A stretch of 64,000 nt of DNA, from NCBI GenBank assembly GCA_949317995.1, contig OX439040.1, forward strand, positions 29,242,030 through 29,306,029, read 5' to 3'. Within the stretch, counting starts at the first letter, position 1, and the number at the start of each line of letters is the position of its first letter. Shown here one piece after another: positions 26,584 through 57,755 of this stretch. The translations under genes were made by a program, and so were the position numbers. A model generated the notes under the pieces. It did no database searches. It was given only the letters and a program-made list of their open reading frames with translations, and was not told the DNA's origin. Source of the DNA: Acholoe squamosa. Taxonomy: Eukaryota > Annelida > Polychaeta > Phyllodocida > Polynoidae.

Positions 26584-27737
26584 CTATGCATTTACATACG
26601 GAATAAGAGACTTTAGTGATTTTTTGGATTCATTTTTGAATTGATTTAAGTTTACAGCAAGTCTCCTGGTAGGTAGAGCATTCCAGTTTAAGGCTCCATA
26701 GTATTCTACGCTCTTAGCATATGCCATACCATTTGGGGTTATAATCTTCAACGTGGGTGCATCATGTAATCTAGTAACAATTCTTCTATTGTCTTTATAA
26801 TTATCATCTTGTGCTCTATTATACATGTAATTTAATAAATGGATATGTCTTCTATCACCAATTTTGTTAATTTTTGTTACATTATGTATGTAGTTAGTAT
26901 TTGTCAGATGGGGCACGCTGAGACATTTTTTTATACAGCGATTCTGAGCATATTGGAGTGGATCCAGATATTTATCAAATGTGGTGGCAAAACAAATATC
27001 AGCATATTCCATATACGGGAGAATAGTACTTTTATATATTCTTATAGCTAGTTTTACATCAAGATATCTTCTTAGTTGACATAGTTTATAGGTATTGTAT
27101 GCAATAGTTTTTACTTGGTTAGCTAGATGTAGATTATAAGTTTCTGAGTTTTTTGGTACTTGAGGAGAAAATCATTACCTTGGTTTTAGCCACATTAATA
27201 GATAATTTGTTTTGAATACACCATGTTTCGTACATCTCAAGATCATGCTGAAGATCAATTTTAGCTGTCATGTACGAGTGATGTGCTGAATATATAACAG
27301 TATCATCGGCATACAGTTTAATGTTACAATTTTTTACACAATTTATTACATCATTCACATAAATCAGGAACAATAGAGGACCCAAAATGGACCCCTGGGG
27401 AACACCACACAGTACTTGATTTTTACCAGACTTTATACCATTTGCTATTGTTATTTGGTGTCTGTTCGTAAGATAATTTTCAAACCAATGGTAATTGAGG
27501 GGATGAGACTCCTCGCACTTATAGAATACAAATGGATAGAAAAACTTCGCACAAAATGCCCACAAGGCATGAACACGAAGGACGGCAAATACGGCTAATC
27601 GTCTACTGAAAAGCCACGTTATTAGAAACCAATGGTAATTGTCAGATCTTATACCGTAATGATTTAGTTTTATTAGCAATACAGAATGATCGACCGTATC
27701 AAAAGCTTTTCTTAGGTCTATAAATGCAGCTATAGTA
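26584..27737 (-). pseudogene. LINE-2 ORF2, RT second half and C-terminus
   Basis: From the insertion point of the small LTR element the frame resumes with AAFIDLRKAFDTVDHSVLL, followed by LCGVPQGSILGPLLFLIY and the catalytic YADD (KLYADDTVIYSAHH). The C-terminal part (27012-26584) has GDRRHIHLLNYMYNRAQDD and ALNWNALPTRRL, separated by frameshifts. It is similar to but distinct from LINE-1. Confidence 0.9.
27498..27625. mobile_element. 128-bp insertion with 16-bp TSD
   Basis: The sequence AAACCAATGGTAATTG occurs at 27482-27497 and 27626-27641, bracketing 128 bp that interrupts the conserved RT order between GIRSDNYHWF and ENYLTNRHQ. Insert plus one TSD copy is 144 bp, so the reading frame is kept, with no stop inside. 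The insert has no A tail, A box or B box and matches no RNA I recognise. TSD length suggests LINE-mediated insertion of a short RNA. Confidence 0.85.
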
Positions 27738-27791
27738 GTGTTTGTATCATACCGATCCAGGTGTAGTTGGAAGGTAGAGAATGTCAGGCCA

Positions 27792-27863
27792 GGGGAAGTA
27801 GCTCAGGGGTAGAGCTTCCGCTTCGAAGTTGGAGGGTCCCGGGTTCGAGTCCCGGTTTCTCCA
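27792..27863 (+). tRNA. tRNA-Ala-like gene inside the left LTR (anticodon CGA)
   Basis: A 72-nt cloverleaf: acceptor GGGGAAG with TTTCTCC (7 pairs, two of them G-U), D stem GCTC/GAGC, anticodon stem TCCGC/TTGGA (4 of 5 pairs), loop TTCGAAG, variable GGGTC, T stem CCGGG/CCCGG with loop TTCGAGT, discriminator A. The A box region is TAGCTCAGGGG; the B box GGTTCGAGTCC is perfect. TTTT follows at 27869-27872, a Pol III stop. Body and acceptor resemble eukaryotic tRNA-Ala, including the G3-U70 wobble pair, but the anticodon would be CGA (Ser). A short variable loop argues against true tRNA-Ser. Probably a tRNA-derived module rather than a housekeeping tRNA. Confidence 0.75.
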
Positions 27864-27888
27864 TGACATTTTCCGCTGACCACTACAT

Positions 27889-27902
27889 TGGTGGAGAAAC
27901 CG
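27889..27902 (+). promoter_or_regulatory. Primer-binding site complementary to the LTR-encoded tRNA
   Basis: TGGTGGAGAAACCG starts 2 nt after the left LTR (one spacer T). It is the exact complement of the last 10 template-encoded bases of the tRNA-like gene, its discriminator A, and a CCA tail (CGGTTTCTCC-A-CCA). The next bases no longer pair. The 1-nt spacing equals that in elements C, D and E. Confidence 0.8.
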
Positions 27903-28178
27903 AGCATCCTAACGCAATCACGGATTGAAGGTACGGGAACCCCGTATCTTAACGCAATCATGGATTGAGGACTCGGGAACTGGGCCGATATGATACAGAT
28001 GACGCTTCGACCAATCCGGTACTTGTACCAGTACACCCACTGGGAAGTCAGGAGTGCCCCAACACTGCTTGATAAAGCCTCAACTCTCAGGTAACTGGAT
28101 TGAGGGGGAATGCCGGGTGCTAGTGGATGGTGGTTGAAGCTGATGGGGAGGAGTGTAGGGGCAGTAATTCCCCGTACT

Positions 28179-28194
28179 TGGTGGAGATACCGAG
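28179..28194 (+). repeat. Second PBS-like motif in the TRIM internal region
   Basis: TGGTGGAGATACCGAG, preceded by a T as at the real primer-binding site, matches 15 of 16 bases of TGGTGGAGAAACCGAG (27889-27904). It lies 62 bp before the right LTR. Two further near-copies of AACGCAATCAYGGATTGA are at about 27910 and 27955, so the internal region is partly built from duplicated pieces. Confidence 0.8.
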
Positions 28195-28309
28195 TGGTCC
28201 CACCTTGTGAGGGGGATCTCTAGAGAGCTTGGTACCAGGTAATCACTGCCCCCTAGTGTGTGTATCATACCGATCCAGGTGTAGTTGGAAGGTAGAGAAT
28301 GTCAGGCCA

Positions 28310-28381
28310 GGGGAAGTAGCTCAGGGGTAGAGCTTCCGCTTCGAAGTTGGAGGGTCCTGGGTTCGAGTCCCGGTTTCTCCA
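28310..28381 (+). tRNA. tRNA-Ala-like gene inside the right LTR (anticodon CGA)
   Basis: Identical to the copy at 27792-27863 except one C-to-T change in the 5' T stem (CTGGG for CCGGG), which leaves a G-U pair. A box, B box, discriminator A, G3-U70 and the downstream TTTT are all kept. Being in the right LTR, its Pol III transcript would end before the LTR end. Confidence 0.73.
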
Positions 28382-28409
28382 TGACATTTTCCGCTGACCA
28401 CTACAGTAG

Positions 28410-40819: not shown

Positions 40820-41203
40820 TGTAGAGGTATGCATATATATATGTTACATTATGGTCCTTTGGCGCGGTGGGTGAGTCAGCCAACCGGGCTTCGCCCTCCA
40901 CTTCCCGGATAGGTGGCAGCATCTGTTCGGGTGGTGTGAGAGAGGCACGGGGTGGCGCCACTGTCCTTACCTATAAGAGGAGGATAGGGCTCAGTCGCCG
41001 CGTCAGAGATAGTGAGCCACCGCTGTATGAAGCTCTCTAAACCTAATTAGAGAATCCGGCACCTGCTACAAACTATCCGAGCTACCTCCGGGTAGCCGTG
41101 TCTGTGTCATCCGAACTGTAATAAAAACCTGTTCGCATACACCCGAATCCTCTTCTTGTTGACTTGTCTGTCGAATAGAGTAGAGGAAAAAGAAACCGTT
41201 ACA
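40820..41203 (+). mobile_element. 5' LTR of element C
   Basis: 384 bp, TGTAGAGGTATGC to CCGTTACA. It contains a TATA-like CTATAAGAGG (40971) and AATAAA (41120-41125), so promoter and polyadenylation signals are in place. It is followed after one base by the primer-binding site. Confidence 0.95.
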
Positions 41204-41204
41204 C

Positions 41205-41217
41205 TGGTGCCGTGACC
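41205..41217 (+). promoter_or_regulatory. Primer-binding site of element C
   Basis: TGGTGCCGTGACC, one base after the LTR end, would pair with a CCA-tailed tRNA ending GGTCACGGCA. The tRNA type is not assigned. Element D has the same site with one change. Confidence 0.85.
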
Positions 41218-41252
41218 AGTGGGTTCGGCAATATGTATAGCCCGGACACATA

Positions 41253-42170
41253 GTGTCCGAACAGGCGAATACAAGATTGGCGTATAACGCCAATCCGGAT
41301 GAGACCCAGGAGGACTCGGCGCATTTTAATGCGCCCTCCAGGGACCAGCAATGGAGGGACACGATACCTCACTATGCGGATAGTGAGGAGAACGTCCCGG
41401 AATCAATCCTGGTAAAACACAGGACTGAACGTGTTAACCAACATTATTCTGTCAATTTAGAATTGGCAGATTCTTTGTTCGAAGCAGGAGGAAGTCATGA
41501 TCCAAATCATCCGGCTCCTATGCCACGGAAGGTAACTTTTGGTGAACTTCCCTACGATGTCCCAGGGCATTTACCACCACTTGATTGTAGTGCGATTACC
41601 ACTGGGAATGTTACATTCAACGTTCCGGATCATGATAAATATAATCGGGAAATGGATGAAATGAACCAGCAATATGTGGCTATGAATGAGACGCTGAACC
41701 TGATAGCGAGAGCTAAAGATGAAGCGTTCGAAGAGAAAGAGGATATTTTGGAAAATCTCCGAGATATGAGAACTGAGTTTGATAATGAAAAACAAACTCT
41801 GAGGCAGCGTTTGCATGAGGAAGAAGTCCAATTTCAAAATGCAAAGGAATCGCTACAGGCAGAATACGAGCGCCTAAAACAATGTTGTGTTAAGCAGGCC
41901 GAATATAATGAAACTGTCCGAATAGGTATTCTCCGATATAACGAGCAGTTGATGAATGATCGGGATGAATACCTACTCGAACTGCAGGATTTACAAAATA
42001 CTGCAGCTGCATTGGGTGACTACGTAGAACAAACCCAACAAGCAATTGGCCCATTAGACGATACAATAATCGTACAATTGGCTAATCGGTTACAGACAGG
42101 GACTGTAGTGGATGATAATAAAGCCATAGGATCGCAGAGTGCGACACCTGTGGCCGGCCCCACGCGGTAA
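41253..42170 (+). pseudogene. gag: Gag N-terminal coiled-coil part of element C
   Basis: A 305-codon frame from a GTG (no good in-frame ATG, so the true start is probably lost; an ATG at 41233 is in another frame). Middle to end is a long charged coiled coil (FEEKEDILENLRDMRTEF, EEVQFQNAKESLQAEYERL, DEYLLELQDLQNTAAAL). It ends at TAA (42168-42170) and the same frame continues with NPFETDGADKNVAGG, so the stop is probably a mutation inside gag. Confidence 0.85.
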
Positions 42171-43480
42171 AATCCTTTTGAAACCGATGGAGCTGATAAA
42201 AACGTGGCAGGAGGTATCTATAACCCTAATATGCCCCCGAATGGAGTAGGTTCCGCAACTAATGGAACAAGATCACCTATCACAGGTAGTTCTCACAATA
42301 CTCCACCTGGAAACAATGTAAGAGCCCCACCGGTACCCCAATTACCTTTTTTGACGAATACAACGTCAGCCACTGGTGGAGCAGGCGATCCTTCGGATCC
42401 GAATAACGATGGTTCGGGTAGACAAGATAGAAATCGGAGTAATAACCCAAAACAACCGGACCCACCGAAACCCGGCCCGGGACCTTCCAATTCTGGTCCC
42501 GGAGCAAGTACACCACGTCCTCCCACAAGGAATACATTGCCTGATGGTCATTCTCAGAATGTTCCATCTCGTCCAACTTATGTAGGTAATCCCCAAATGC
42601 AAAATGCACAGAGCCCACATACAAGAATGTATGCCGATGGTGGTCAACCTCCGGCCAATGACTCCCATGGTTTCCGGGGAAACCAAGCTAATAGCTATGG
42701 CTATGACGGTAGTAATGCCAGTTATACCTATACCCAAAATTCAAGGATGCAGCCAAGGCTATGGGGGAGGTGGAGGTTATCCATCAGGAGGATCCGGAGG
42801 TGGTAGATATCCATCAGGAGGATCCGGAGGTGGTAGATATCCATCAGGAGGATCCGGAGGTGGAGGTTATCCATCAGCAGGATCCGGAGGTGGAGGTTAT
42901 CTATCAGGAGGATCCGGAGGTGGAGGTTATCCATCAGCAGGATCCGGAGGTGGAGGTTATCCATCAGGAGGATCTGGAGGTGGAGGTTATCCATCAGCAG
43001 GATCCGGAGGTGGAGGTTATCCATCAGCAGGATCCGGAGGTGGAGGTTATCCATCAGGAGGATCCGGAGGTGGAGGTTATCCATCAGGAGGATCCGGAGG
43101 TGGTAGATATCCATCAGGAGGATCCGGAGGTGGAGGTTATCCATCAGGAGGATCCAGAGGTGGTAGATATCCATCAGGAGGATCCGGAGGTGGAGGATAT
43201 CCATCAGGAGGATCCGGAGGTGGGGGTAATACCCCAGATGGTGCTAATCAAGGAGACGGAGGAAGGCCTAAGAAAATGAACAGGCGTTCTTCTATGTCCC
43301 CCGGAATGCAAGAAATTTTTAATAATAGTAAATGCATTCAGGGATTGGGAATCAATTGCCATCGTAAAGGAGCCGATGGTGTCGAAGTGATGGACTGGAG
43401 TTTAAAAGAGGCCAATCGGCTTAGGGGTTGTTCCAACCCTGCGCGTCGTATGGTGGAGGTATCCGACACCATACGATCCG
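42171..43480 (+). pseudogene. gag: Gag Pro/Gly-rich linker of element C, with 10-residue repeats
   Basis: The first part (42171-42740) is Pro/Asn/Ser-rich (PDPPKPGPGPSNSGPG). After a frameshift at about 42745 it becomes roughly fifteen copies of the decapeptide GGYPSGGSGG coded by a 30-bp repeat (42761-43230). A non-repetitive basic stretch follows (RPKKMNRRSSMSPGMQE). A further frameshift near 43450 leads into capsid. Element D has no such repeat. Confidence 0.85.
42761..43230 (+). repeat. 30-bp tandem repeat coding GGYPSGGSGG
   Basis: Units of 30 bp (AGGATCCGGAGGTGGAGGTT plus ATCCATCAGG), differing mainly in GGAGGTT versus GTAGATA and CAGGAGG versus CAGCAGG. The alternative plus-strand frame (EVIHQEDPEV repeats) and the minus-strand frame (DNLHLRILLM repeats) are also open because 30 is a multiple of three. 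Confidence 0.95.
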
Positions 43481-44003
43481 AATGAACCTTGGAAAGATAA
43501 CTACCAAATCTTTGTAGACGAGGTAAATTGTAGCGGATGGACTAAAGACGAAGCATTACCGTATTTAGTCTGCTGGCTCAGTAAGGGAGGTAAAGTAGCC
43601 CTGAACAGATGGAGAAAAGAATATGGGATAGAAGGTACCTATGACGAATTGTTGGAGTGTGCCTGCTACTTATTCGGTTCTATTGTCCGAGAAGATCCTT
43701 GGATCACATTTAAGAGACGGACACAGAAACCCAGAGAATCACATAAAGTCTTTGAGCTGGAATTACAGGACCTGCTTAGTAAAGCTAGGCCTAATTGGGA
43801 ATATAACGATGAATGTTGGATACAAGAATTATTCACTCAATTCATTGCCGGACTCCGTGATCCGGAACATAAGACTGTAGCCTGGGATGAATGGAAGGAC
43901 GATACCTCCTTCAATGATCTGTTCCTGGCTATCGAAAATTATGACAGAAAGAAGCTGTTGCTAGGCGCGAATGCACCCCCTGCAAGAGCTTCAGCAGTTA
44001 AAG
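43481..44003 (+). pseudogene. gag: Gag capsid of element C, first part
   Basis: Capsid sequence EPWKDNYQIFVDEVNCSGW, ALPYLVCWLSKGGKVALNRW, ITFKRRTQKPRESHKVFELE, ELFTQFIAGLRDPEHK, SFNDLFLAIENYDRKK. It lines up with the inverted capsid of element A. The frame is cut at 44003 by element B and resumes at 46979 (KSNPPIPEYTAAV). Confidence 0.9.
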
Positions 44004-44056
44004 GTGTAGGGGCCGGCATCGTTGTATATATATTAGTGCGGTTCATCCGAGAGACG

Positions 44057-45845
44057 TGTAAATTCTACCTCATTTGGATTGACCAGCTCAAATCCAAATT
44101 GGGGTCGATTTACAATTATGAGGCCCGGACGAAAGTTCAATGGGCTATGACCCAATGGGGACCATCCGGCAATCGCCGAAAGTGCCCATTTGAGTCTTGT
44201 CAGCTTGCCCTCACTGGAGAGAAGATGTTTGAGATGAAGCCTCGCTTCGCTCGACATATCGTGGAGCATCACATGCACCACAAGCCACTTCTTCAGTGTG
44301 TAGTCGGAGACCGTCCGAGCAAACTGTGTGACGGCTCGTTTTCCACCAACCGGCGTCGGGACATGGCTCTGCATCTGCAGAAGGCCCATGGTACCGGCCT
44401 GGAAAAGACAAGGAAATGGGCCGTAAAGTGCTTCAACGAGCTCCTACCTAACTGGGCCTCATTGAGCGTAAAAGACGTTAAAGGAACAGGCATTTGAAAC
44501 CGGATTCTGTTCATGGAGGAGTGGCAACCTCTTGGCCTACTTCCAAATCAACTTCTCGCCAACCAAGTTTGGGATGCCCACCGAGGTACACCTGAAGGTG
44601 AAGAAGTGGAGAGGGGACGACAAGCGGGAAAAAGGCAAGGCCCGCTCGAAGGGTCCTAATGGAGGCACAGCCACGGCTACCGGTGCTTCCAAAAGGACCC
44701 GCGCAGACCGATCCGTAAGCCCTACGGGTAACAAGGATCAGCCCAGACCAGCCAACCCAGCTGATTGTCGCCTGTCGGGACAGCAAGTCTCGGCTTTGGA
44801 TATGCCTGGCAACCAGACCCGTAGGGTGGTTAGCCAGGCGGCCACTCCAGCCACCCCAGCACCAACACCCACTGCAACCGAGGAGCAACCCCCGAGTGAA
44901 GCCACTGGCAGTCCGGATGACTGGAGCACATTCTTTGGTGCCCCATCCTGATACGGATCTTGGTGGGCCGGTGAGGGGTCATCCGGCAAGCGCCCCACGT
45001 ATAGTGAATACGCGACGAAGTTCCCTTCAATGGGACCAGCGGGACCCGAATCTCAGGTCCTAACCTCCTTGGGTCGGTCTAAACCCTGGGGTAGGACCCG
45101 AGCTCCCCCGGGCGGCGGCCGAGGCCGAGGAGGTACGACAGTTGAGGGTCCCTCGGTCCCTCCAGCAGGCCCTTCGTCTGTCACTGTGGAGGCCGCCGCG
45201 CCTCCACCGGTTATAGTTCCACCAATGGCCCCTCGGGTGCCCGTTATGGAACTAATCTCAGGTACGCTGTCAGGTCTTCAGGATCCGAACACGTTTGTCG
45301 ATCATCGCGACGTTCAAACGGCGACGATCCAGAATGACCTGATGGCGGAATGGCAGGCATTGCATCGCCAGAAGTCAGTCGACTACTGGCGTACAATGAC
45401 TGAAGCCACCTTCAACCTGGTCTACGAGATCCAGAAGAGGGAGGAAGAGAAGATCCGGGTACAGGAGAGGAAGAATGTCGAGGAGGCAATCCAATCCTGC
45501 CGGCGCCAGCAGTTGGAAGCTGAAAAACTTAAGGAGTTCCACCGTGCTGAGAACGCCGGGTACATCCATAAGTACAAGGAGGCCGACCTCAAGTTCTTCC
45601 TCACGTTCGGGAAGCACCTGGACGAGTGGGACGGCTCTGCGTCGTTCCTTTCCCTCGCTCCGGTTGCTCCACCCAAACCCGAGGCAGTTGACAGTCCGTC
45701 CGCGGGGATGGGCGCACTGAGCTTGGGTACCGAGTCGCTCAGCGAAACCCCAACGCTGCTCTCTGTGAGCAGTTGCAGCAGCTCGGCTTCAGCTGCCCAA
45801 GCGGAGTCGGCTGAGAAGATGGACACTGATCCGGAGGATCTTTAG
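44057..45845 (+). pseudogene. ORF3 (second half) of element B
   Basis: Begins inside ORF3 at KFYLIWIDQLKS, followed by the two-finger Cys/His module (CPFESC, RHIVEHHMHHKP, LQC-x10-C, HLQKAH) at 44168-44390. After a frameshift at about 44490: basic linker (NFSPTKFGMPTEVHLKVKKW), QQVSALDMPGNQT, GPAGPESQVLT (45031), EWQALHRQKSVDYWRTMTEA and the coiled C-terminus DLKFFLTFGKHLDEWDG, ending KMDTDPEDL. A TGA at 44949-44951 stands where A has Arg, so it is a stop in a CGA-type codon. Best copy for the C-terminal half of the family. Confidence 0.82.
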
Positions 45846-46615
45846 GTGTCCATCTGAAGGAATCTGTGGTACCCGAGGGTAAAGGCATTTACCATGCCAG
45901 AGGTTCTTATCCTTATGCTGGACTCGCCGATCTGGAACCAAACCTGCAGCGAAGGTGGACGCTACCCGAAACACAAAAAGGATTACCACACCAAACCGGG
46001 GCTCCATCTTCCCATCTTTATCAGGGCACATCATAACAGCAATGTGGCTTGCCACCACATATATGTCGCCGGGTGGAGCTGCAGACACCAGTTGTTCCAG
46101 ATTCGCCGGAAGTTCGGTATTTTGTACGGGCGATCCTACTACCCTGGTAGGACGCCTATTATCATCAATATTAAAATTTTGTGTAAAGCTATTTTTATAT
46201 AATATTTATATTTTTGTAAACAAACTAAACAAAATTTTTTTCTTTTCGGGTTATTAACCCCACCTCGGGTCGGTTACTACTATTGTAAAATAATGTTAAT
46301 ACCATATCACCACATGTCTATCACTTTTATCACGTCTTTAAACTATAATAACACTGTAACATTGTTACCATTTATCACCTTAGGTCGATGGTGCATAAGG
46401 CGCCACTTCCTAATTGTTATTATTAGTTACTTCGGGTTATATGCGATGATGCCTTATTATGTACATATTATTTATAATGCCCCTTTAATGTTGTATAATC
46501 TATACGAACACCTGTGTATAGACTTACCTATGTAGATATAACTTATTATTGTATAAAGTTAACAATAGGTATTTGTTAAATACACCCAACCCTAGGTATA
46601 GTCTAGTGGGGGTGG
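45846..46615 (+). other. AT-rich 3' non-coding region of element B
   Basis: Non-coding between ORF3 and the 3' LTR, very AT-rich at 46150-46610. It ends in the polypurine tract AGTGGGGGTGG (46605-46615) that primes plus-strand synthesis. Confidence 0.75.
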
Positions 46616-46978
46616 TGTAGGGGCCGGCATCGTTGTATATATATTAGTGCGGTTCATCCGAGAGACGTGTTCGTGTGGTGCTCGTTCCTTCTATGCCAAC
46701 TAGGTGTCGCTTTGCGATACCCGGCTGGTACAAGAGGGGGCAGCACCATGCCTCGTGTCCAGCTTCTACTAAGAAGCCGGACGAGCCGCAGAAGGGGACT
46801 GGACGTAGTCCAGTCAAGACGTGTAACCATAAACAGCTAAAAGGTTAATAAAGTCCTACCCGAGAGGTAGGGGTATCCGGGGCTTTGCCCAACCCGAACT
46901 ACTTGTGTTGTGTTGGTATCTTTAGTGATAAGCAAGCCAACGAGCCACCCAACATATACGTCGATACGAACCATTACA
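46616..46978 (+). mobile_element. 3' LTR of element B
   Basis: 363 bp, TGTAGGGGCCGG to CCATTACA, close relative of the LTR of element A. It carries AATAAA in TTAATAAAGTC (about 46848). Confidence 0.93.
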
Positions 46979-47480
46979 AAAGTAATCCGCCTATACCGGA
47001 ATACACTGCTGCGGTTGAGTCCAGTCGAATGGACTCCGATTACGAATATATCTCAGATGATAATGGAGAATATATCGGATCAGTACAAATTGCCGGTAAA
47101 TACTATCGGCAGAAAAGGTACCGAAAGGGAGGTTTCAAGAAGAAAACGAACTTCCAGAAACCCATAGGGTATGCATTACCCATAGCACTTCAGCTAGAGG
47201 TGCCGCAGAAACCGGTAGCACAATTACCGGTACCACAGTTACCCACATTCTCTACTCCTCAGGTGGCAGTGTCAACTGCTCAGGGAGATTTTATGGAGAA
47301 TCTGGTTACTTGGTTGACGAATGCTCTGCGACGCCCAAGGGTGGATAAGTCTCAGAGAAGGTGTTACAGGCCATTTCGCTGCCGAATGTGTGGCAGAGAA
47401 AGCGGTGTATAGAGCACGGATGAGTTTTTCTACCAGGATAAGGAAAACTAGGGGGGGATTCTGTTACGGGCAAGCAACAG
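46979..47480 (+). pseudogene. gag: Gag capsid-nucleocapsid end of element C
   Basis: After element B the frame reads SNPPIPEYTAAVESSRMDSD, IGSVQIAGKYYRQKRY, a Pro/Val/Gln-rich linker and a degenerate zinc knuckle. The C-terminal half (GHFAAECVAEK) is visible in another frame, while the first two cysteines are not, so the knuckle is damaged. Confidence 0.75.
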
Positions 47481-47561
47481 GATCCCAGAAAAGTCACTTG
47501 CCATGATACCACCAGCAGTGGTGCAGATCTGAATGGAGTAACACATTCGCCCAATACTGAG

Positions 47562-48149
47562 GTGGTAGAGGAGCCCGCTCAGGAGATTGGGGAATCCGGT
47601 ATAACAAGTGCCCAGGGAGCACAGGGGAAACCCGATACCGGATTGGAGGTAGGAGGTCATTTCTTGGCCAGAGTTGGTAATGCTCACCTACCCCCGGGCC
47701 ATCCTTGTCTGGAATACTTAAAAGGATGTGGACGGAACCCGGGTGCGAATAATGAGGATTCTGCAATAACTGATGTACCTTCCATGTTGCATGGAAGGCG
47801 GTGGTATGTTTCGCTTAATATCAATGGAAGACCCGCTGAATTCCTAGTCGATACGGGAGCTAGCCATTCCTGTGTCTCTCGGAAGATAGCGGATCTTATA
47901 TCGGATGTGCGCGATACTCTCCTATTGGGAGGAAACGCCCAAACGGCCGACGGTAGTAAGATGCAAACATATGGTAGGATGTGTGTGAAATTGCAATTTG
48001 AGGGTACTCAGGAGTATGTGATAACCACTACGATTGCCGGTATAGCGGATGAGGGGATATTAGGATTGGACTTTGCGGCCCTGCATGGAGCAGTCTTGGA
48101 CCCGAGAACGGGTGAGCAGCTAAGTGTGTGGAGCATCCTTATCCTGTGA
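47562..48149 (+). pseudogene. pol: Protease of element C
   Basis: WYVSLNINGRPAEFLVDTGAS holds the retropepsin Asp-Thr-Gly, followed by DGSKMQTYGRMCVKLQF and DEGILGLDFAALHG. Upstream is a polar linker. A one-base shift near 48120 separates it from the RT frame that starts with PYPVKVQCVLRQV. Confidence 0.93.
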
Positions 48150-49021
48150 AAGTACAATGTGTATTAAGACAAGTTAGCAGTGTGGCGTCCGTCGCTCAGA
48201 CTGTAAAGATTCCTCCGGGAGTGGCCTGTGATGTTCTGGTCCGGAGTAATTCCGAGTTAAGGAACCAGGATGCAGTAATTGAGCCAGATACCATTATGCT
48301 GGCTGGTATAGGATTGGAATCGGTTGACACGATAGTGGCCAATGGGGCTGGGTCAGTCGTACCGGTTTCCAACACCGGTAACAGGACATTATATTTGGAT
48401 AAGGGATCCATTTTTGGTACCGTTACATTGGCTGAAACAGTGACTAGTTGTTCCCTGAACCTTTCGGTTGAAACGGTTGAACAGGGATGGACCGAAGATT
48501 TGAAGAAAATGTATGAGGATACGAGTTTAGAAGATCCTTCGCAGAAAGAAACGCTTAAAGAATTATTGATTAAGTATCAGAAAGCGTTTGCCGCTCCGGG
48601 TGAACCACTCGGGAAGACTACGAAGGTATTACATACCATTGATACGGGAGAGGCGCTGCCCTTTAAGATCCCGTATCGGAGGCTACCCCTACCTAAGAAA
48701 AGGGTAGCGGAAGCGGAAATAGCTAAGATGTTAGAACGGAATGTAATAGTTCCATCTAGCAGTCCTTGGAGTAGTCCGGTATGTATGGTGACTAAAAAGG
48801 ATGGGTCTATCCGATTCTGTATAGACTATAGGAAATTAAATGGTTTAACGAAGAAAAATTCGTACCCATTGCCAAGGATTGATGAGACAATCGATTCCTT
48901 GGGAGGTAATAAATGGTTTTGTACCCTGGACTTGCAGTCCGGATACTGGCAAGTAGGAATGAATCCGGATGATATGGAAAAGACAGCTTTTTCAAGTCAT
49001 AAAGGGTCTGTTCCAGTATAA
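48128..49021 (+). pseudogene. pol: Reverse transcriptase of element C, first part
   Basis: Linker (VASVAQTVKIPPGVACDV), then RT: SPWSSPVCMVTKKDGSIRFC, YRKLNGLTKKNSYPLPRIDE, and the first catalytic Asp in TLDLQSGYWQVGM. The frame is lost at KTAFSSHKG by an extra base present in the repeated units that follow. Confidence 0.93.
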
Positions 49022-50386
49022 TGTTATGCCCTTTGGCTTATGTAATGCTCCGGCAACCTTTGAGGCCATGATGGAGACACTTCTGAGTGATCTGTTATGG
49101 AAAAGGTGCCTCGTTTACCTTGATGATGTTATAGTATTCGGTAAAACATTTGACGAATGCTTACACAACCTCAAGCTAGTTTTAGAAAGTTTTAAACTTT
49201 CCTTCCTTGGGAGGTAATAAATGGTTTTGTACCCTGGACTTGCAGTCCGGATACTGGCAAGTAGGAATGAACCCGGATGATATGGAAAAGACAGCTGTTC
49301 CAGTATAATGTTATGCCCTTTGGCTTATGTAATGCTCCGGCAACCTTTGAGGCCATGATGGAGACACTTCTGAGTGATCTGTTATGGAAAAGGTGCCTCG
49401 TTTACCTTGATGATGTTATAGTATTCGGTAAAACATTTGACGAATGCTTACACAACCTCAAGCTAGTTTTAGAAAGTTTTAAACTTTCCTTCCTTGGGAG
49501 GTAATAAATGGTTTTGTACCCTGGACTTGCAGTCCGGATACTGGCAAGTAGGAATGAACCCGGATGATATGGAAAAGACAGCTGTTCCAGTATAATGTTA
49601 TGCCCTTTGGCTTATGTAATGCTCCGGCAACCTTTGAGGCCATGATGGAGACACTTCTGAGTGATCTGTTATGGAAAAGTTGCCTCGTTTACCTTGATGA
49701 TGTTATAGTATTCGGTAAAACATTTGATGAATGCTTACACAACCTCAAGCTAGTTTTAGAAAGTTTTAAACTTTCCTTCCTTGGGAGGTAATAAATGGTT
49801 TTGTACCCTGGACTTGCAGTCCGGATACTGGCAAGTAGGAATGAATCCGGATGATATGGAAAAGACAGCTTTTTCAAGTCATAAAGGGTCTGTTCCAGTA
49901 TAATGTTATGCCCTTTGGCTTATGTAATGCTCCGGCAACCTTTGAGGCCATGATGGAGACACTTCTGAGTGATCTGTTATGGAAAAGTTGCCTCGTTTAC
50001 CTTGATGATGTTATAGTATTCGGTAAAACATTTGATGAATGCTTACACAACCTCAAGCTAGTTTTAGAAAGTTTTAAACTTTCCTTCCTTGGGAGGTAAT
50101 AAATGGTTTTGTACCCTGGACTTGCAGTCCGGATACTGGCAAGTAGGAATGAATCCGGATGATATGGAAAAGACAGCTTTTTCAAGTCATAAAGGGTCTG
50201 TTCCAGTATAATGTTATGCCCTTTGGCTTATGTAATGCTCCGGCAACCTTTGAGGCCATGATGGAGACACTTCTGAGTGATCTGTTATGGAAAAGGTGCC
50301 TCGTTTACCTTGATGATGTTATAGTATTCGGTAAAACATTTGACGAATGCTTACACAACCTCAAGCTAGTTTTAGAAAGTTTTAAA
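48901..50386 (+). repeat. pol: RT core amplified in five tandem copies
   Basis: GGGAGGTAATAAATGG recurs at 48901, 49209, 49496, 49783 and 50091 (spacings 308, 287, 287, 308). Each unit codes the RT palm from LGGNKWFCTLDLQSGYWQ through MPFGLCNAPATFEAMME to LVYLDDVIVFG and stops at ESFKL, joined to the next by SFLGR in the shifted frame. The 287-bp units lack 21 bp (TTTCAAGTCATAAAGGG region). Only the last copy continues into KPKKCNLF. Copies are nearly identical, so amplification is recent or an assembly error. Confidence 0.93.
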
Positions 50387-51574
50387 CTTAAACCTAAGAA
50401 ATGTAATTTGTTCAAAACGTCCATAAATTATTTGGGCCGAATAATATCTGATGACGGAATAAAAGCTGATCCTGAGAAAATTCAGGCAGTAACGGACTGG
50501 GGTGTACCGAAAAATCCAAAGGAAGTGAGGTCATTCTTGGGATTCTGTTCATATTACAGAGACTTTATACCGAACTATTCTCGGGTAAGTTATCCCTTAC
50601 AAATCTTAACAACATGGACCCCAGGTAGTAGAAAGGAGAAGTTCCCATGGGGAACCGAACAGGAACAAGCTTTCCAACAATTAAAAGCCTTGTTCACGAG
50701 TACTCCAGTACTGCAATACCCATCCGAGGATGGGCATTTCATACTGGATACGGATGCTAGCAATGAAAGTATCGGAGCAGCCCTTTCCCAAGTCCAAGGT
50801 GGAGTGGAGGTTCCGATTGCATTCGCTAGTAATACACTGAGTAAAACGCAGCGAAATTATTGCACAACTAAACATGAATTATTAGCTGTCGTTGTGTATA
50901 CCAAAAAGTTTAAACACTTCTTATGGGGAACTAACTTTACATTACGTACGGATCATTCCTCCTTAAGATGGTTATTAAACTTTCGGGATGCCGAAGGAAT
51001 GATAGGGAGATGGCTAGCCCATCTGTCAGAATTCGGACAAGAAAATAGCCAGATACAGCATCGTGCCGGAAATAAGCACGTGAATGCTGATGCCTTATCC
51101 CGAATACCAATTTGGAAATGTGACAATCCGAATTGTACTGATTGTGGGATCCATAGAGCAGTAGCAGCCTCGATTCGAATTCCTTTCGAAACACGTATTG
51201 GCAGTGTCCTGGATTGGTCCTTAGAAACCATAAGGAACTTCCAGGAAGCTGACTCGGTTACTACTAGGCTCCTACGATTAGTACCAAAGGGTATATGTCC
51301 AGCTAGGCCGATAGCCTCGCTGGAGAATAGGGAAATGAGAAGATTTCTAGCTCAATGGACGGAGTTGGAGGTCAAGAGAGGAATACTGTACCGCTGGAAA
51401 CCATGTAACAATGGCGGAAAGCAGATACAAGTTGTCGTTCCATCTGCCATGCGTAGAGACATCATGTATTATTGTCACGGACACAGAACAAGTGGTCACT
51501 TTGGGAAGAAACGATCTTTAGCTCGTCTCTCAAAAAGATACTACTGGCCGGGTATGTCGCAGGACTTACTCTGA
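50387..51574 (+). pseudogene. pol: RT thumb, RNase H and integrase zinc region of element C
   Basis: INYLGRIISDDGIKADPEKI and FLGFCSYYRDFIPNYSR (thumb and connection), RNase H ILDTDASNESIGAALSQ, NYCTTKHELLAVVV, LRTDHSSLRWLL, HVNADALSRIP, and integrase H2C2 YCHGHRTSGHFGKKR. TGA at 51572-51574 interrupts the frame; the following WVASCPDCCKNKPG completes the zinc site. The same frame continues from 51575. Confidence 0.93.
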
Positions 51575-52822
51575 TGGGTGGCTAGTTGTCCGGATTGTTG
51601 TAAAAACAAACCCGGACAAGGACCCGGTAAGTTGCCCTTATCCCAAGAACTATTCGGGGTACGGTTCGCCCGAATAGGAGTTGATATCATTAGCGGATTA
51701 AATAAAACGCCGAATGACAATACGTGCATGATGGTAGTGTGTGACTATTATACCAAGTATACTAAAGTCTTCCCACTGCCGGACCATAAGGCTGTTACTT
51801 GTGCGGAAGCTTTTGTGAAGGGTTGGGTACTAACCTTTGGGGTGCCCTTAATGCTTCACAGTGATCAGGGAAGGGAATTCGAATCAAATCTCTGGCAGAG
51901 TATGTGTGAATATCTCGCCATCTGTAAAACCAGGACCAATCCGTATCGTCCACAAAGTGATGGACTAGTAGAAAGGTTCAATAGAACCCTTATACAAGTC
52001 CTAAAGTCACTTGTAAATGACAATATGGATGATTGGGATGAACAATGCGACTTTGTAACACACGCTTACAATGGCACTGTTCATTTGAGTACCAACTGTT
52101 CCCCAAATTTATTAGTATTTGGAGAAGATTTAATAATGCCAGCAGATTTGGTGTTTGGTGTTGTCGGAATGAATCCGGAATTACCTTGCCAGGTAGTTTT
52201 TGTGGAAGCATTACGAGACAGGTTTAAAAAGGCATATGAAGTGGTTCGTCTAGAATTACATAAAAGTGCCCGCTGGCAAAAAGCCGGATACGATACGGGT
52301 TTAAAGGTAAGACACTTTAAACCCGGAGATTGTGTTTTACGATTACATGAACCCCTTAGACATGTTAAACTGGCATCCAATTGGGATGGTCCGTTTACAG
52401 TAACTACTGTGATTAGTGATTGTACGGTATTGATACAATCCGGTATAGGAAGGGTGTACAAATCCAATATAGATAGGTTACGTCCTTGGTTAGGAACAGA
52501 AAACTCTGACGAGAAATATGGGGAAGGTTCCAAATCCATATCAAATATGGATAGGGTACCCTGGTTAAAGAAATTACCAAGTAGAGGTCCCGGGAGACTG
52601 AGAAACGTACCGGATAAAACCGTAATGCCAGCGCCAACACCATCTCGGCGCGGTGTAGGAAAAAAAGTCTCGACGGGTGCAGGCGGACTGAACAGGAAAG
52701 GGAAATTGTTGGCTACGAAATCCCTAGAGAAGGCTCGGAAGTCTGCCAGGTTGAATAAGGGAGCTGGAGACGGTGTAATGCTCCGTCGCAGTCCACGACT
52801 TGCCAGGGCTGCAGTGACCTAA
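51575..52822 (+). pseudogene. pol: Integrase of element C
   Basis: CPDCC ends the zinc-binding region. DDE core: GVDIISGLNK, LHSDQGREFES, PQSDGLVERFNRT. It is followed by ASNWDGPFTVTTVISD (GPY/F module) and a basic Arg/Lys-rich tail to 52822. The core is intact in one frame of 414 codons. The in-frame TGA just upstream separates it from the rest of pol. Confidence 0.95.
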
Positions 52823-53322
52823 CCCGTTACACAACGAGTGTATCGTCCTGTAATCCGTTATATGTTGTACTTTGTTTAACGGTTCGCTATAGGTTGCTGT
52901 TATGGACTCCGGGAGACGTACCAGTTGGTATTGGATGAAAAATTCAATGGGTAAGTAAAGACTACCCATAAAGGCTCCATATGAATCCCTCGAGAGTCTC
53001 CCGAAGATGAGCGATAATGGCAGAACTGTACGGGTTGTCATTTGTTTATATGTATCGCACATGTTGTGTGACGTCACGTTGGCTACTCGCGTATGACCTC
53101 TCGTGACTGCGGGTAAGTGACGTCAACCACGAGAATTCGGCCATATTGGATTGAGCGGGCGAGGGAAAAAGACCTAGTCATTGGTACGTTTTTTCTGGCC
53201 ATTTCCGATTGAATAGAAAAAAACCAGCAAGATCTTCTAGCGCAGGGGAGGATGAACACCGAGTAGGTGAGTGTTCGGTGGGGAGACAGAGAAGCTACCC
53301 CAGAAGTTGTCTTCTCAGCTGA
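52823..53322 (+). other. Spacer between pol and ORF3 of element C
   Basis: No coding frame. It contains CpG-containing stretches (GTGACGTCA occurs twice, near 53070 and 53120), which resemble a CREB-type site and might drive a separate ORF3 RNA; no start-site evidence exists. Confidence 0.4.
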
Positions 53323-56300
53323 ATGGCTGAGAAAACCGTGGTGGAGTCTAAGCGGTCCGGCGAGCCGGATCACTTGACTCCAGATAGTGTCCTCCCAGAT
53401 GCCGATTTACAGCAAGGCCCACAGCCTTCGTCCCCGGTTACCCAGCGGGAGGAAGAGATGATGGAGTTCGACGATGATCTCGAGAACTTCAACTTGGGGA
53501 AAAACAGCAGACCGGTTTCACCGTTACCGTCTTCCCCAGGCGACAACAGTGCAGGGGGGATCGCCCTCCTGCACCGGATTTGTCACCCGAGACGATGGGG
53601 GAATCCGGTGAAGCCACCGGTAACCCGACTACCAGCAGTTGTGCGGATGACTGCAGTGAAAACCCGAATGACGGATTTCGAACCCTTGGGCGCCACAGAG
53701 TGAGCGAGAACTACTATCCATCTTATGATGGTAGGTACCTCTTCGTTCACCCGAACTTGATGAGGACGGATGAAGACGGTCGTCATATTCTGATTGACCC
53801 GGAAGTCCGACGGAGTATTTTGGAGGTTATACCAAACCACATATACTCGGAAATCCCTCAGGAATGGCTGACGGATTACGGATGGCTTCAGCGGGGACTT
53901 ATGGTCCACCAAGAATTCCGGAGGGCAGTATATGATGCTGCTATGACACTGGAGCTTGACCTCATGCCACGACCCGATCGTAGCACATGGGGTATCGATG
54001 ACCTTAAACAGGTAGATTGGGTCGAGCTTTTTGTACGGTTCGAAAGCTACTGTTACCCGAATCCGGATTCTCACGAGACGTCCTTATTGAACGTCGCTGA
54101 GTACCGGAGAGCTGCTGCTGCGTTTGATTCCTGGTCTACTGGTTACACCCTCCAGGAATCCGACATTGAAAAGTGTCGGAAGTCGAGCCTATTAACATGG
54201 ACTCGACCCGAACTTATCCGACGTCTCATCCGGGAACAAATGGAGGATGAGCGAGCCGCAGCCAAAGCGAGCCATGAGGAGAGTGAGAGGAAGCGTCTGG
54301 ATGACGAAGCCGCTATAGCTCCTCCGATTAAGAAGATTGTCATCACCGGCAAACGGGAGGACTCCTCACATAAAAGTACTCGTGCGGGAAAATCGACTCC
54401 TAAGCCCAGAGCCAAAGAGTCGGAAACACCCGCAGACACTGACGACGGGAGCTGGACTAAAACCCAGTCGGAACGTCAGCGGAAGGCTGAACTCTGGAAA
54501 CTTAAAAACCTTCCGGATTCGGCCATAATAGAACGATGAAACAGAGCCCCCGAACCCGTAGAATCTATGGATGTAGAGGAATCTGTTTCCGAATCGAATG
54601 TCTCGGATGAGTCGGACGACAACATTGTCCCGCCAACTCTATCCGATGCGGACAGATGGGCCAACGCTAAAGGGGGTTTTTAGGACCGTATCCCTACTAG
54701 CATGGAGGATTGTGTCACTGGTGTCACCAAAAAGGGTACGGTAAAATATGCCTGCCCAAAACGGTACAACAAGAACGGTAATTCCGACGATGAGGACTGG
54801 ATGCGTCTGACCGACAGCGATCCAGTCCCGAATAAGATGTACCAGAGTATCTGGCTCTTACTGAACAATTGTGCCGACACATATTATAGTCAGGTGCAGA
54901 AAAAGAAACTGCGGTGGGCCTTGGATAAATGGTACTCCAAGACCCGGAAGACATGCCCCTTCTCCATCTGTATGGATAAAAGCGACATGGAGCAGGAACG
55001 CGTCTGGGATACCCAGATCCGGTTCCAGCCCCACCTGGTGGAGGAGCATATGCACCACCACCCCGAGTACTCGTGTAATCCAGACGAGGGCAAGAAGAGT
55101 GCTAAATGCACTAAAAGTGTGAGTTATAAACGCCGGGGTGACTTATGTCGCCACGGAAAGATGGCTCACGCAGACAGACTCAACAAGGCCCGTGACCAAG
55201 TTATGGTGCTGCACAAAGAACTCATGGTAGAGTTCCGAAAAATGGATAATGAGCGTTGGGCGAACGTGAAGCCGAGTGATCAATCATTTGGCACCACGGA
55301 CACCACGCACGGTAAAAAGCTCGTGGCGAGATTTGTTCTCACTGAGGGCCGATGTAAACTGGACCTCCACGATGAAGAGTGGAATGAGTGCTGCAACTCC
55401 GGGAGGAAGCCAGTTCAATCCGGACGCAGCAGGAAAGATGTCAGACGGGAGGGATCCCCGAGACTTCCGGATGGTACCCACAGCCGGATAGACCGATCAA
55501 GGTGACCGCTGGACCATCATGATGCGGAGAAATCTTCGAAAGAAGTGACCTTCAAACACCCGTCACAGGTGTTAAGGGGCGCTTCCGGCAGGCCTAGTTC
55601 GTATAAGGCCGCTGCTGAAGCCACACCTGGCAAGCTTGATTCCAGCCAATTCCCCGACTTGGGAGGACATGGCCCGGAGAGTCAAGTACTGACACCCGGT
55701 AACAAGGGTAAACTGCGCCGGAAGCCGTCTGCAGCAGCAGGCAGTCCTATCGCTGGAGGTATTTATAAACCCCTCACCAGCGACGAACAAATTCAGCATT
55801 ATCTGAAGTTGGGATTGCAGGTACACCTCCCCCCTACCCCGGATGGTGTACCTTTTGTTCACGTGGGACCAGACCAACCCGGGCCTGCTCCCATTCCGAA
55901 AGCTGTGGTTAGTACTGAGAAAACTAACCCAACTGCTCCACAAGCACCCGCTAAAGTGGAGAAGGAACCCCCCAAAGCGCCGAAGGACAAAATTGTCGTT
56001 CGTTGTGGTAGGGTGGACACCTGGTTCGCAACTGTCGAACCAAAAAAGCTGAAGTCCAGAGCACCATCTACCAGACGTGGGAAGGACTTCAACGTCAGAG
56101 GGCCATAGCATTCCATCAAGTAATGATTAATGACACTCTGATGTGTTTCCGGGAGCTGCATGAAGCCGAGAAGGATCGTGTGGAGAAACAGGTCAAAGAA
56201 AAAGCACAAAAGAAATCAGATTGTGCCGTCCACGTCCTGAAAAAGAAATTGGACGCGGAAGAGATGAAGAATGTCCAACTTCATAGTAAGTTTATGACGG

Positions 56301-56383
56301 TCTTCGGTGTCAATCTCGACGAGTGGGATGGCACAAAGGAAGATGCTTTGCGGTTGCTGAAAGATAAATATGGCAAAAAGTAA
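53323..56383 (+). pseudogene. ORF3 of element C
   Basis: Starts at ATG 53323 (MAEKTVVESKRSGEPD, acidic Pro/Ser head). It shifts frame within a G run at about 53556 and continues to 56108 in one frame with three internal stops (54539, 54682, 55505). A last shift leads to the C-terminus at 56383. Segments: IPQEWLTDYGWLQRGLM domain (53850), SDDEDWM (54783), two-finger module (CPFSIC, HLVEEHMHHHP, SC-x10-C, RHGKMAH; 54955-55175), GHGPESQVLTPG (55670), coiled C-terminus with FMTVFGVNLDEWDG (56290). Same segment order as A and B. Confidence 0.75.
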
Positions 56384-57370
56384 CCGCAGTCCTCCCTAAG
56401 GGACCCGACTAGTCTATTGGCATAATCCTGTAGGCCGTACAGTATTCTTCATCCATCCGGACTAGAATACCGGATGATCCACAAGGATGACTCCTGAGGT
56501 CCCGGTTGGACTACTAACCCATCCGGGTGCGATGTTGACCACATGACATCTACAACCTAGTTATAAAAGGGACTACAGCGCACAGATGTACCCAATATCC
56601 AACTGGAACTATACATCTGTGGGGAGACACACTCGCGGATAGTGCCGTTGTGGTATCCCATGATTGTTACATTCCTGATATTTTTAACCCGGACTATTCA
56701 ATATAACGGAGAAAGGAGCATATGACACAACCGTGGATAGTGTCATTATGTTTCCTATACTATATTATTTAAATTTACAAGACTTTAGCACACCGTAGAG
56801 GATTAGGGTAGCTGCCCTATCATCTCACATACTATAACCACAAGGATTAATTACACAAGTTCCACATAGCAGGAATGGACAATGCTCTATTATCAGAGCA
56901 ATGATACCAATATATATATATATCTTGTCATTTGAACTATTCCACCACCTGGACTAACCGGACTGTGTTCATCCATATTTATTTTTCTCTCTCCTGGACA
57001 GTCAATACCGTTCTGTGATCCGAATGAATATATGATAATATATTCGTATACTATAATGACTATGTCATTCTTGTTGATAAATATTCATAGTATGTTTGTA
57101 AAAAAAAACAAACCCAAAGGGTGTATGACGATTAAATATTATATTGTAATATATTTTCCATTCTGGATGTATACCGATTATTACTCTGTGATATACGATT
57201 TAATATCACTTCTATCCGGTTATATATATATTCATATATTGTCGTCTAATGACACATATATCCATAATGTTAATAACCTCTATTATTATAGATAGATATA
57301 ACTATAACATAACCCCATTGTTGGTTTTAAATAGTTTATTTATCCCCCAAGTTTTATCTAGTGGGGGTAG
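56384..57370 (+). other. AT-rich 3' region and polypurine tract of element C
   Basis: Non-coding. It contains an (AT)n stretch near 56911 and ends in the polypurine tract AGTGGGGGTAG (57360-57370) directly before the 3' LTR. A minor 87-codon frame at 57032 looks fortuitous. Confidence 0.7.
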
Positions 57371-57755
57371 TGTAGAGGTATGCATATATATATGTTACAT
57401 TATGGTCCTTTGGCGCGGTGGGTGAGTCAGCCAACCGGGCTTCGCCCTCCACTTCCCAGATAGGTGGCAGCATCTGTTCGGGTGGTGTGAGAGAGGCACG
57501 GGGTGGCGCCACTGTCCTTACCTATAAGAGGAGGACAGGGCTCAGTCGCCGCGTCAGAGATAGTGAGACCACCGCTGTATGAAGCTCTCTAAACCTAAGT
57601 AGAGAATCCGGCACCTGCTACAAACTATCCGAGCTACCTCCGGGTAGCCGTGTCTGCGTCATCCGAACTGTAATAAAAACCTGTTCGCATACACCTGAAT
57701 CCTCTTCTTGTTGACTTGTCTGTCGAATAGAGTAGAGGAAAAATAACCCGTTACA
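57371..57755 (+). mobile_element. 3' LTR of element C
   Basis: 385 bp, TGTAGAGGTATGC to CCGTTACA, with about seven substitutions and one indel against the 5' LTR. AATAAA and TATA motifs are kept. ATAG follows at 57756-57759. Confidence 0.95.

Follow-up and report, generated by a model that had tools for sequence, protein, structure and literature searches.

A Helenus-like TRIM of Acholoe squamosa whose LTR-encoded tRNA probably serves as its own reverse-transcription primer

Copying of LTR retroelements and retroviruses usually begins from a host tRNA. Self-priming by a segment from the 5′ end of the mRNA is known for Tf1 and has been proposed for Tj1, according to the available part of PMC4600332. 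TRIMs whose LTRs contain a tRNA-derived sequence were defined as Helenus by Kojima in 2024 (PMC10886601). The available text of that survey states that no complementarity was found between the LTR tRNA and the primer binding site (PBS), and that the LTR tRNA therefore has no part in initiation; this absence is presented there as a finding and is not part of the definition of Helenus. A 2026 meeting report, in its available part, gives the LTR tRNA a role in transcription only (PMC12859917). Here we describe a Helenus-like TRIM from the polychaete Acholoe squamosa in which the PBS fits the LTR tRNA itself. Judging from its sequence and that of its relatives, we put the probability that the LTR tRNA is the element's own reverse-transcription primer at roughly 0.78.

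The window element and its LTRs

The window, that is, the whole 64,000-nt stretch of DNA that was analyzed (contig OX439040.1, positions 29,242,030 to 29,306,029), contains a TRIM, or miniature LTR retrotransposon, and both of its LTRs carry a tRNA. Its features, in window positions, are as follows.

27735..27738, no strand: target site duplication (TSD) GTAG, left (direct reading)
27739..27887, + strand: 5′ LTR remnant, 149 of 252 bp, first 103 bp missing (full 252 bp in other copies)
27792..27863, + strand: LTR-encoded tRNA, Ala-like body, G3:U70, anticodon CGA (ARAGORN; Rfam, 51.3 bits)
27799..27809 and 27842..27852, + strand: A box and B box, inside the tRNA at 27792..27863 (box positions read)
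27869..27872, + strand: TTTT, putative Pol III terminator (a T run also follows the tRNA in the LTR ends read from other families)
27889..27902, + strand: PBS TGGTGGAGAAACCG, complementary over 14/14 nt to the LTR tRNA 3′ end plus CCA
28142..28153, + strand: polypurine tract (PPT) GATGGGGAGGAG, immediately 5′ of the 3′ LTR
28154..28405, + strand: complete 3′ LTR, 252 bp, TGTAGGGG...CTACA (boundaries identical in the subfamily copies sampled)
28179..28191, + strand: PBS-like sequence TGGTGGAGATACC within U3, resembling the PBS of a variant with the tRNA end TATCTCCA
28310..28381, + strand: second LTR-encoded tRNA copy (ARAGORN; Rfam, 48.6 bits)
28387..28390, + strand: TTTT downstream of the second tRNA (sequence reading)
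28406..28409, no strand: TSD GTAG, right (direct reading)

The element has two LTRs, a PBS, and a PPT, is shorter than 1000 bp, and carries no mobility proteins, as expected of a TRIM; its longest ATG-to-stop stretch is 62 amino acids. It lies in a LINE. The initial annotation had described flanking GTAG duplications and a LINE reading frame restored upon excision, and both were confirmed, the empty site being open in one LINE frame when rejoined in silico. It had also delimited two 149-bp LTRs. The repeats (27739 to 27887 and 28257 to 28405) and their two differences, at 27742 and 27840, were found as described, but the LTR boundaries were not. In 11 of 12 subfamily entries, which represent 10 distinct other copies (a single locus underlies both L002 and L062), both LTRs are alike for at least 75 bp further upstream, the exception being the window copy, and this longer likeness rules out the 149-bp boundaries. 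The full LTR is 252 bp and starts with TGTAGGGG directly after the PPT, and the layout of the subfamily in other copies is 252 + 266 + 252 bp. The window 5′ LTR lost 103 bp, apparently between two TAGTGT repeats; because the deletion would have run from the TAGTGT at the TSD-LTR border to the one inside the LTR, the TSD is intact. The PBS-like stretch in U3 has a leader with it, as if the LTR had taken up a former PBS region. Elsewhere in the same LINE, at 27482 to 27641, a 16-bp direct repeat, AAACCAATGGTAATTG, lies on both sides of a 128-bp insert, perhaps another small retroelement.

Further analysis of the two tRNAs supported most of what had been annotated, namely, a cloverleaf-capable tRNA with Pol III boxes and a TTTT stop. 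Both were detected by ARAGORN and by Rfam (RF00005, cut-off 29), the A and B boxes read TAGCTCAGGGG and GGTTCGAGTCC, and TTTT follows. However, when folded by itself, the window tRNA does not form a cloverleaf in the lowest-energy structure given by RNAfold. In the fold comparison, the host gene L086 likewise gave no cloverleaf, whereas L088 and the V5 tRNA (see below) of L082 did. ARAGORN labels the window tRNAs Ser because of the anticodon. At Rfam gathering scores, these two tRNAs were the only matches in the window, and 5S rRNA was not found. An LTR type with another anticodon loop (CTGCAGG) was seen at L094, L097, L098, and L118, with the acceptor end and PBS unchanged.

Genomic copies and the fit between PBS and tRNA

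The element is neither single nor rare in the genome of its host. When as many as 3 mismatches were allowed, a 22-mer across the LTR-PBS junction matched 2302 places (reversed control, 3), a 24-mer from the tRNA anticodon arm matched 3525 (control, 0), and an internal 24-mer matched 453 (control, 0). The junction and anticodon-arm counts, set against their controls, exclude a chance origin of the structure. The main sample consisted of the first 100 exact anticodon-arm matches listed, all on contig C1 and grouped by hand into 69 loci, 60 of which were read together with 8 further loci from another genome search. This sample favors young copies and was picked by letters of the element; for the 60 loci those letters belong to the tRNA, which makes them unfit for testing whether the tRNA is present. 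Both LTRs were read in 35 elements, 26 of which carry an exact 4-bp TSD, and the LTR-LTR identity is 79.8 to 100% (median, 99.2%). Subfamilies vary in U3 and in the internal region (LTRs of 204 to 252 bp and internal regions of 167 to 466 bp, truncated copies included), and the tRNA, T run, U5 end, and PBS are retained across them.

The LTRs of other copies also carry the tRNA. This was seen in a second sample, 20 of 100 listed junctions found with a search pattern free of tRNA letters: ARAGORN reported a tRNA just upstream of the junction in 16 of the 20, two more (L162 and L166) retain a partial tRNA with the TTTCTCCA end, and two (L153 and L159) have no tRNA. The exact TTTCTCCA end is present at 17 of these 20 junctions, and L167 differs by one change. 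Tandem arrays with common LTRs were found at L042 and L050. In the L077-L079 array, LTRs of two tRNA types adjoin, those of the window type leading into the PBS that belongs to the other. Large palindromic and tandem TRIM arrays surround a TGG-tRNA junction at L092, L093, L096, L098, and L100, with L105, L106, and L108 to L113.

The annotated match of the PBS to the reverse complement of the LTR tRNA 3′ end plus CCA held over all 14 nt, and the two sequences differ between families in a coordinated way. When six PBS variants from at least three families (V1, the window type, to V6) were compared with six LTR tRNA ends, using one hand-picked copy per variant, the diagonal of the matrix showed 0 mismatches in 13 nt and the off-diagonal showed 1 to 7. 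Automatic pairing of each PBS (14 nt) with its own LTR tRNA gave 76 rows, 42 with 0 mismatches and 21 with 1; these counts include loci chosen by PBS variant or by antisense junction (see below), as well as six false pairings or misframed matches (L033, L056, L057, L061, the second row of L069, and L103), in which a 3′ LTR was paired with flank or the match was out of frame. A pattern for a PBS variant that left tRNA positions 66 to 68 free found 13 places. The tRNA has the matching change in five of them (L071, L074, L075, L076, and L081, of which L075 and L076 are near duplicates) and lacks it in eight, six of these combining a window-type tRNA end with a V2-type PBS. We read the eight mismatched pairs as priming in trans. 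V3 is represented by a single copy, L071.

A pattern for other families matched 207 genome places (control, 1) and was the source of V5 and V6. V5 has the tRNA end GGTTTCCCTA and the PBS TGGTAGGGAAACC, and a single 48-letter pattern holding both ends (up to 3 mismatches) matched 99 places, 11 of them exactly (control, 0). V6, found at 21 places, has an unrelated, Gln-like tRNA, and its copy L148 fits over 14/14 nt. Copy-by-copy tracking was absent in V6: the mean over 20 rows (L150 of the set gave none) was 2.25 mismatches compared to 2.22 after shuffling, with 6043 of 10,000 shuffles as good. The fit was exact in only 2 of the 20 rows, and the variation resembles CpG decay. The exact fit of L074 was dropped as proof of coordinated change: once more copies of that family had been compared, chance CpG decay could account for it, and permutation gave a negative result. 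V2 could derive from a host Ala end through CpG decay on both sides. The differences that are not of the CpG-decay kind lie at position 67 (host Ala versus window type), positions 70 and 72 (V5), and position 69 (V4).

All six PBS variants start with TGG. The letters that follow the LTR tRNA vary (TGAC, AAGAC, AGAGAC, AACG, and GACC), and none encodes CCA. Since TGG is constant while the LTR encodes no CCA, the PBS fits an added CCA, and the simplest reason for this would be pairing with the processed, CCA-tailed 3′ end of a tRNA.

No exact fit was found with host tRNA-Ala, the isotype covered by the comparison. The six host tRNA-Ala genes read end in CGGCATCTCCA, CGGCGTCTCCA, or CAGCATCTCCA. 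Against the PBS of the window type (V1) these ends have 2 mismatches, compared to 0 for the LTR tRNA; against V5 they have 4, and against V2 and V3 they have 1 at best. No Ala-anticodon gene with an end of the TTTCTCCA or TTTCCCCA kind was found when the genome was searched with a pattern that combined such ends with an Ala anticodon arm. The strict Ala pattern had 99 genome matches; by hand count, 83 of them lie within ~53 kb in a tandem tRNA-Ala cluster (contig C15:5088096-5141494).

Antisense tRNA junctions and the origin of the primer

In some copies, the LTR end, one nucleotide, and the PBS (TGG) run directly into the reverse complement of the LTR tRNA. Up to 44 such places were found, 26 of them without mismatch (control, 0). 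The pattern allowed 2 mismatches; one match, C1:104896297 (locus L070), is an ordinary PBS with leader, and other 2-mismatch matches among the 44 may also be ordinary PBSs. None of the 44 is of the host-Ala type, although five of the six host Ala ends fall within the 2 mismatches allowed. We sampled 34 loci, covering 35 of the 44 places, and read 34 junctions in 33 loci (L072, 13 from one set, and 19 of 20 from another); L130 had no junction match. The antisense copy continues past the U3 start into the PPT and internal region in 9 of the 34 junctions, ends at the U3 start in about 12 (11 clear, with L127 degenerate), ends just beyond it in one (L115), ends in partial U3 in two, and ends inside the tRNA, 24 to 68 nt from the CCA, in 10. 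These extents were measured by script and sorted by hand, which moved L095, L125, L126, and L127 from partial U3 to the U3 start, L132 from past the U3 start to the U3 start, L133 from past the U3 start to partial U3, and L115 from the U3 start to just past it.

All five U3-start junctions with a readable left border have 4-bp TSDs (L072, ATAG; L097, CCTA; L118, CATT; L125, AGGG; and L126, AGAT). The LTR to which the PBS is attached (LTR A) is only 36 bp in L126 and not recognizable in L101, and in 6 of the 34 junctions it has no script-recognized tRNA. In L072 and L132, LTR A has a window-type tRNA end, but the attached PBS bears the tRNA end of LTR B. The junctions are not limited to one family, since L126 and L127 are of the V5 type. 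Longer reads of five junction loci showed complex palindromes. The junctions imply that PBS and LTR-tRNA sequence became linked prior to integration. Either an LTR-encoded primer was copied or a PBS mispaired with an LTR tRNA, and either origin means that the LTR tRNA and the PBS were together during reverse transcription.

Most likely, the LTR tRNA primes reverse transcription after it has been matured and CCA-tailed. Pol III would initiate at the tRNA within an LTR, the 3′ end of the tRNA would be cut and CCA would be added as for any tRNA, and the CCA-tailed end would anneal, whether in cis or in trans, to the PBS on an element RNA, where the reverse transcriptase that extends it would come from an autonomous LTR element. 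Since the primer would rewrite part of the PBS in each new copy, the PBS would follow changes in the LTR tRNA. The proposal of the initial annotation that the element makes its own primer is thus supported at the level of sequence, from which we infer transcription, maturation, and priming. If true, the element has taken over its own primer supply, which would account for the retention of a complete tRNA rather than a promoter alone, and the genome offers a record of primer use.

A candidate for the helper class lies in the same window. A 16.9-kb Ty3/gypsy-type element at 40820 to 57755 has LTRs at 40820 to 41203 and 57371 to 57755, a TSD of ATAG, TGTAG...TTACA ends, the PBS TGGTGCCGTGACC, and reverse transcriptase, RNase H, and integrase zinc-binding domains within 50153 to 51574. 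It is similar to the TRIM in its TGTAG...TACA ends, in the 1-nt spacer before the TGG of the PBS, and in the 4-bp TSD, and it differs in being protein coding, in having no tRNA by ARAGORN, and in its PBS sequence. Given this likeness in ends and in the length of the TSD, its class could provide the helper for the TRIM. Its interior contains 30-bp tandem repeats and ~300-bp direct repeats at 42676 to 43327 and 48895 to 50384.

A host tRNA is unlikely to be the primer. In that case the LTR tRNA would act solely as a Pol III promoter, acquired in the distant past from that tRNA species, and its fit to the PBS would reflect common descent. The LTR tRNA is indeed Ala-like, the host Ala ends CATCTCCA or CGTCTCCA are one mismatch from the PBS of V2 or V3, and the Helenus families whose primers are discussed in the available part of the survey are given host tRNAs (PMC10886601). 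However, LTR tRNA and PBS depart from the host Ala ends together, in V5 (4 mismatches versus 0) as in V1, and both the search for Ala-anticodon genes with a window-type end and the search for junctions of the host-Ala type came back empty. We give very little credence to the idea that the complementarity serves RNA structure, the tRNA 3′ end and PBS forming an 11-bp hairpin for packaging or dimerization with no priming. The two arms, near neighbors in the 5′ LTR and leader, could pair, but the PBS occupies the canonical position, 1 nt after the LTR, and its TGG has no encoded partner next to the LTR tRNA.

The other two alternatives concern the junctions and the form of the primer. The junctions could be by-products of template switching, in which a nascent PBS mispairs with an LTR tRNA, rather than primer copies. 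This has a substantial chance of being correct, if somewhat short of even; it bears on the junction evidence only and is compatible with self-priming. A PBS and an LTR tRNA can base-pair over 11 nt, and copies that stop at the U3 start are consistent with a plus-strand DNA template, but in L072 and L132 the PBS on LTR A already has the tRNA end of B, which would require earlier priming of A by a B-type tRNA. It is also possible, though the odds lean against it, that the full-length RNA of the element itself acts as primer through its 3′ end; Pol III would pass the first TTTT and stop after the 3′ LTR tRNA, and R would equal the tRNA. This would refine self-priming and competes with a free, separately transcribed tRNA. 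The nine antisense copies beyond the U3 start and the dozen or so ending there suit the 3′ end of a genomic RNA because U3 lies upstream of the tRNA. The segments between the two tRNAs point weakly the same way: 23 segments (9281 bp), related to one another, contain no TTTT (6.3 expected from shuffles), no AATAAA, ATTAAA, or TATAWA, and three AAAA, a composition that fits a Pol III transcript. The absence of TTTT was dropped as strong evidence because the segments are related and 4 of the 27 loci tried (L003, L055, L065, and L075) gave no segment. On the other hand, the 10 copies ending inside the tRNA could come from a free tRNA, mispairing on plus-strand DNA could account for those that end at the U3 start, and RNase P might cut the tRNA off. 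A genomic RNA that ends in the mature tRNA, its CCA-tailed end priming the PBS of its own or another element, is a tentative form of self-priming, less likely than not. If true, neither a host tRNA nor a poly(A) signal would be needed, and the tRNA would be promoter, 3′-end signal, strand-transfer repeat, and primer at once.

Comparison with known elements

The initial annotation knew of no described element that encodes its own primer tRNA. TRIMs with a tRNA in the LTR have been published as Helenus (PMC10886601), so that the novelty lies solely in the match of the PBS to the LTR tRNA. In the literature searched, with preprints and most subscription papers outside its scope, no paper described an element that provides its own primer tRNA. 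The one survey of tRNA-bearing TRIMs found there asked whether the LTR tRNA might act as primer and, in its available part, reports no complementarity (PMC10886601), whereas several families here show it.

According to the available part of that survey, Helenus elements resemble the TRIM described here in being short LTR elements with a PBS, a PPT, and, in each LTR, a tRNA that has A and B boxes, and animal Helenus elements share the 4-bp TSD, exact here in 26 of 35 elements; thousands of LTRs and tandem arrays are reported for Helenus LTR-11_DR (PMC10886601). Pol III transcription, a further point of comparison, is predicted here from the promoter boxes and TTTT. The difference lies in the primer: host tRNAs are assigned there, whereas here the PBS fits the LTR tRNA over 14/14 nt and the six host Ala genes fit worse. 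The comparison with Cassandra made in the initial annotation is apt, both being TRIMs with a Pol III gene in the LTR, but that gene is 5S rRNA and not a tRNA, and the available part of the source mentions no primer role for it (PMC10886601). In Tf1, and as proposed for Tj1 and for our element, the primer is supplied by the element and complementary to its own PBS; according to the available part of PMC4600332, the primer of Tf1 and Tj1 is a 5′ segment of the mRNA, whereas here it would be a tRNA end with an added CCA. If Pol III starts at the LTR tRNA, that tRNA would lie near the 5′ end of the RNA. By its anatomy, then, the element is a Helenus-type TRIM, and by its proposed use of the primer, a mechanism that we infer from sequence, it is a new form.
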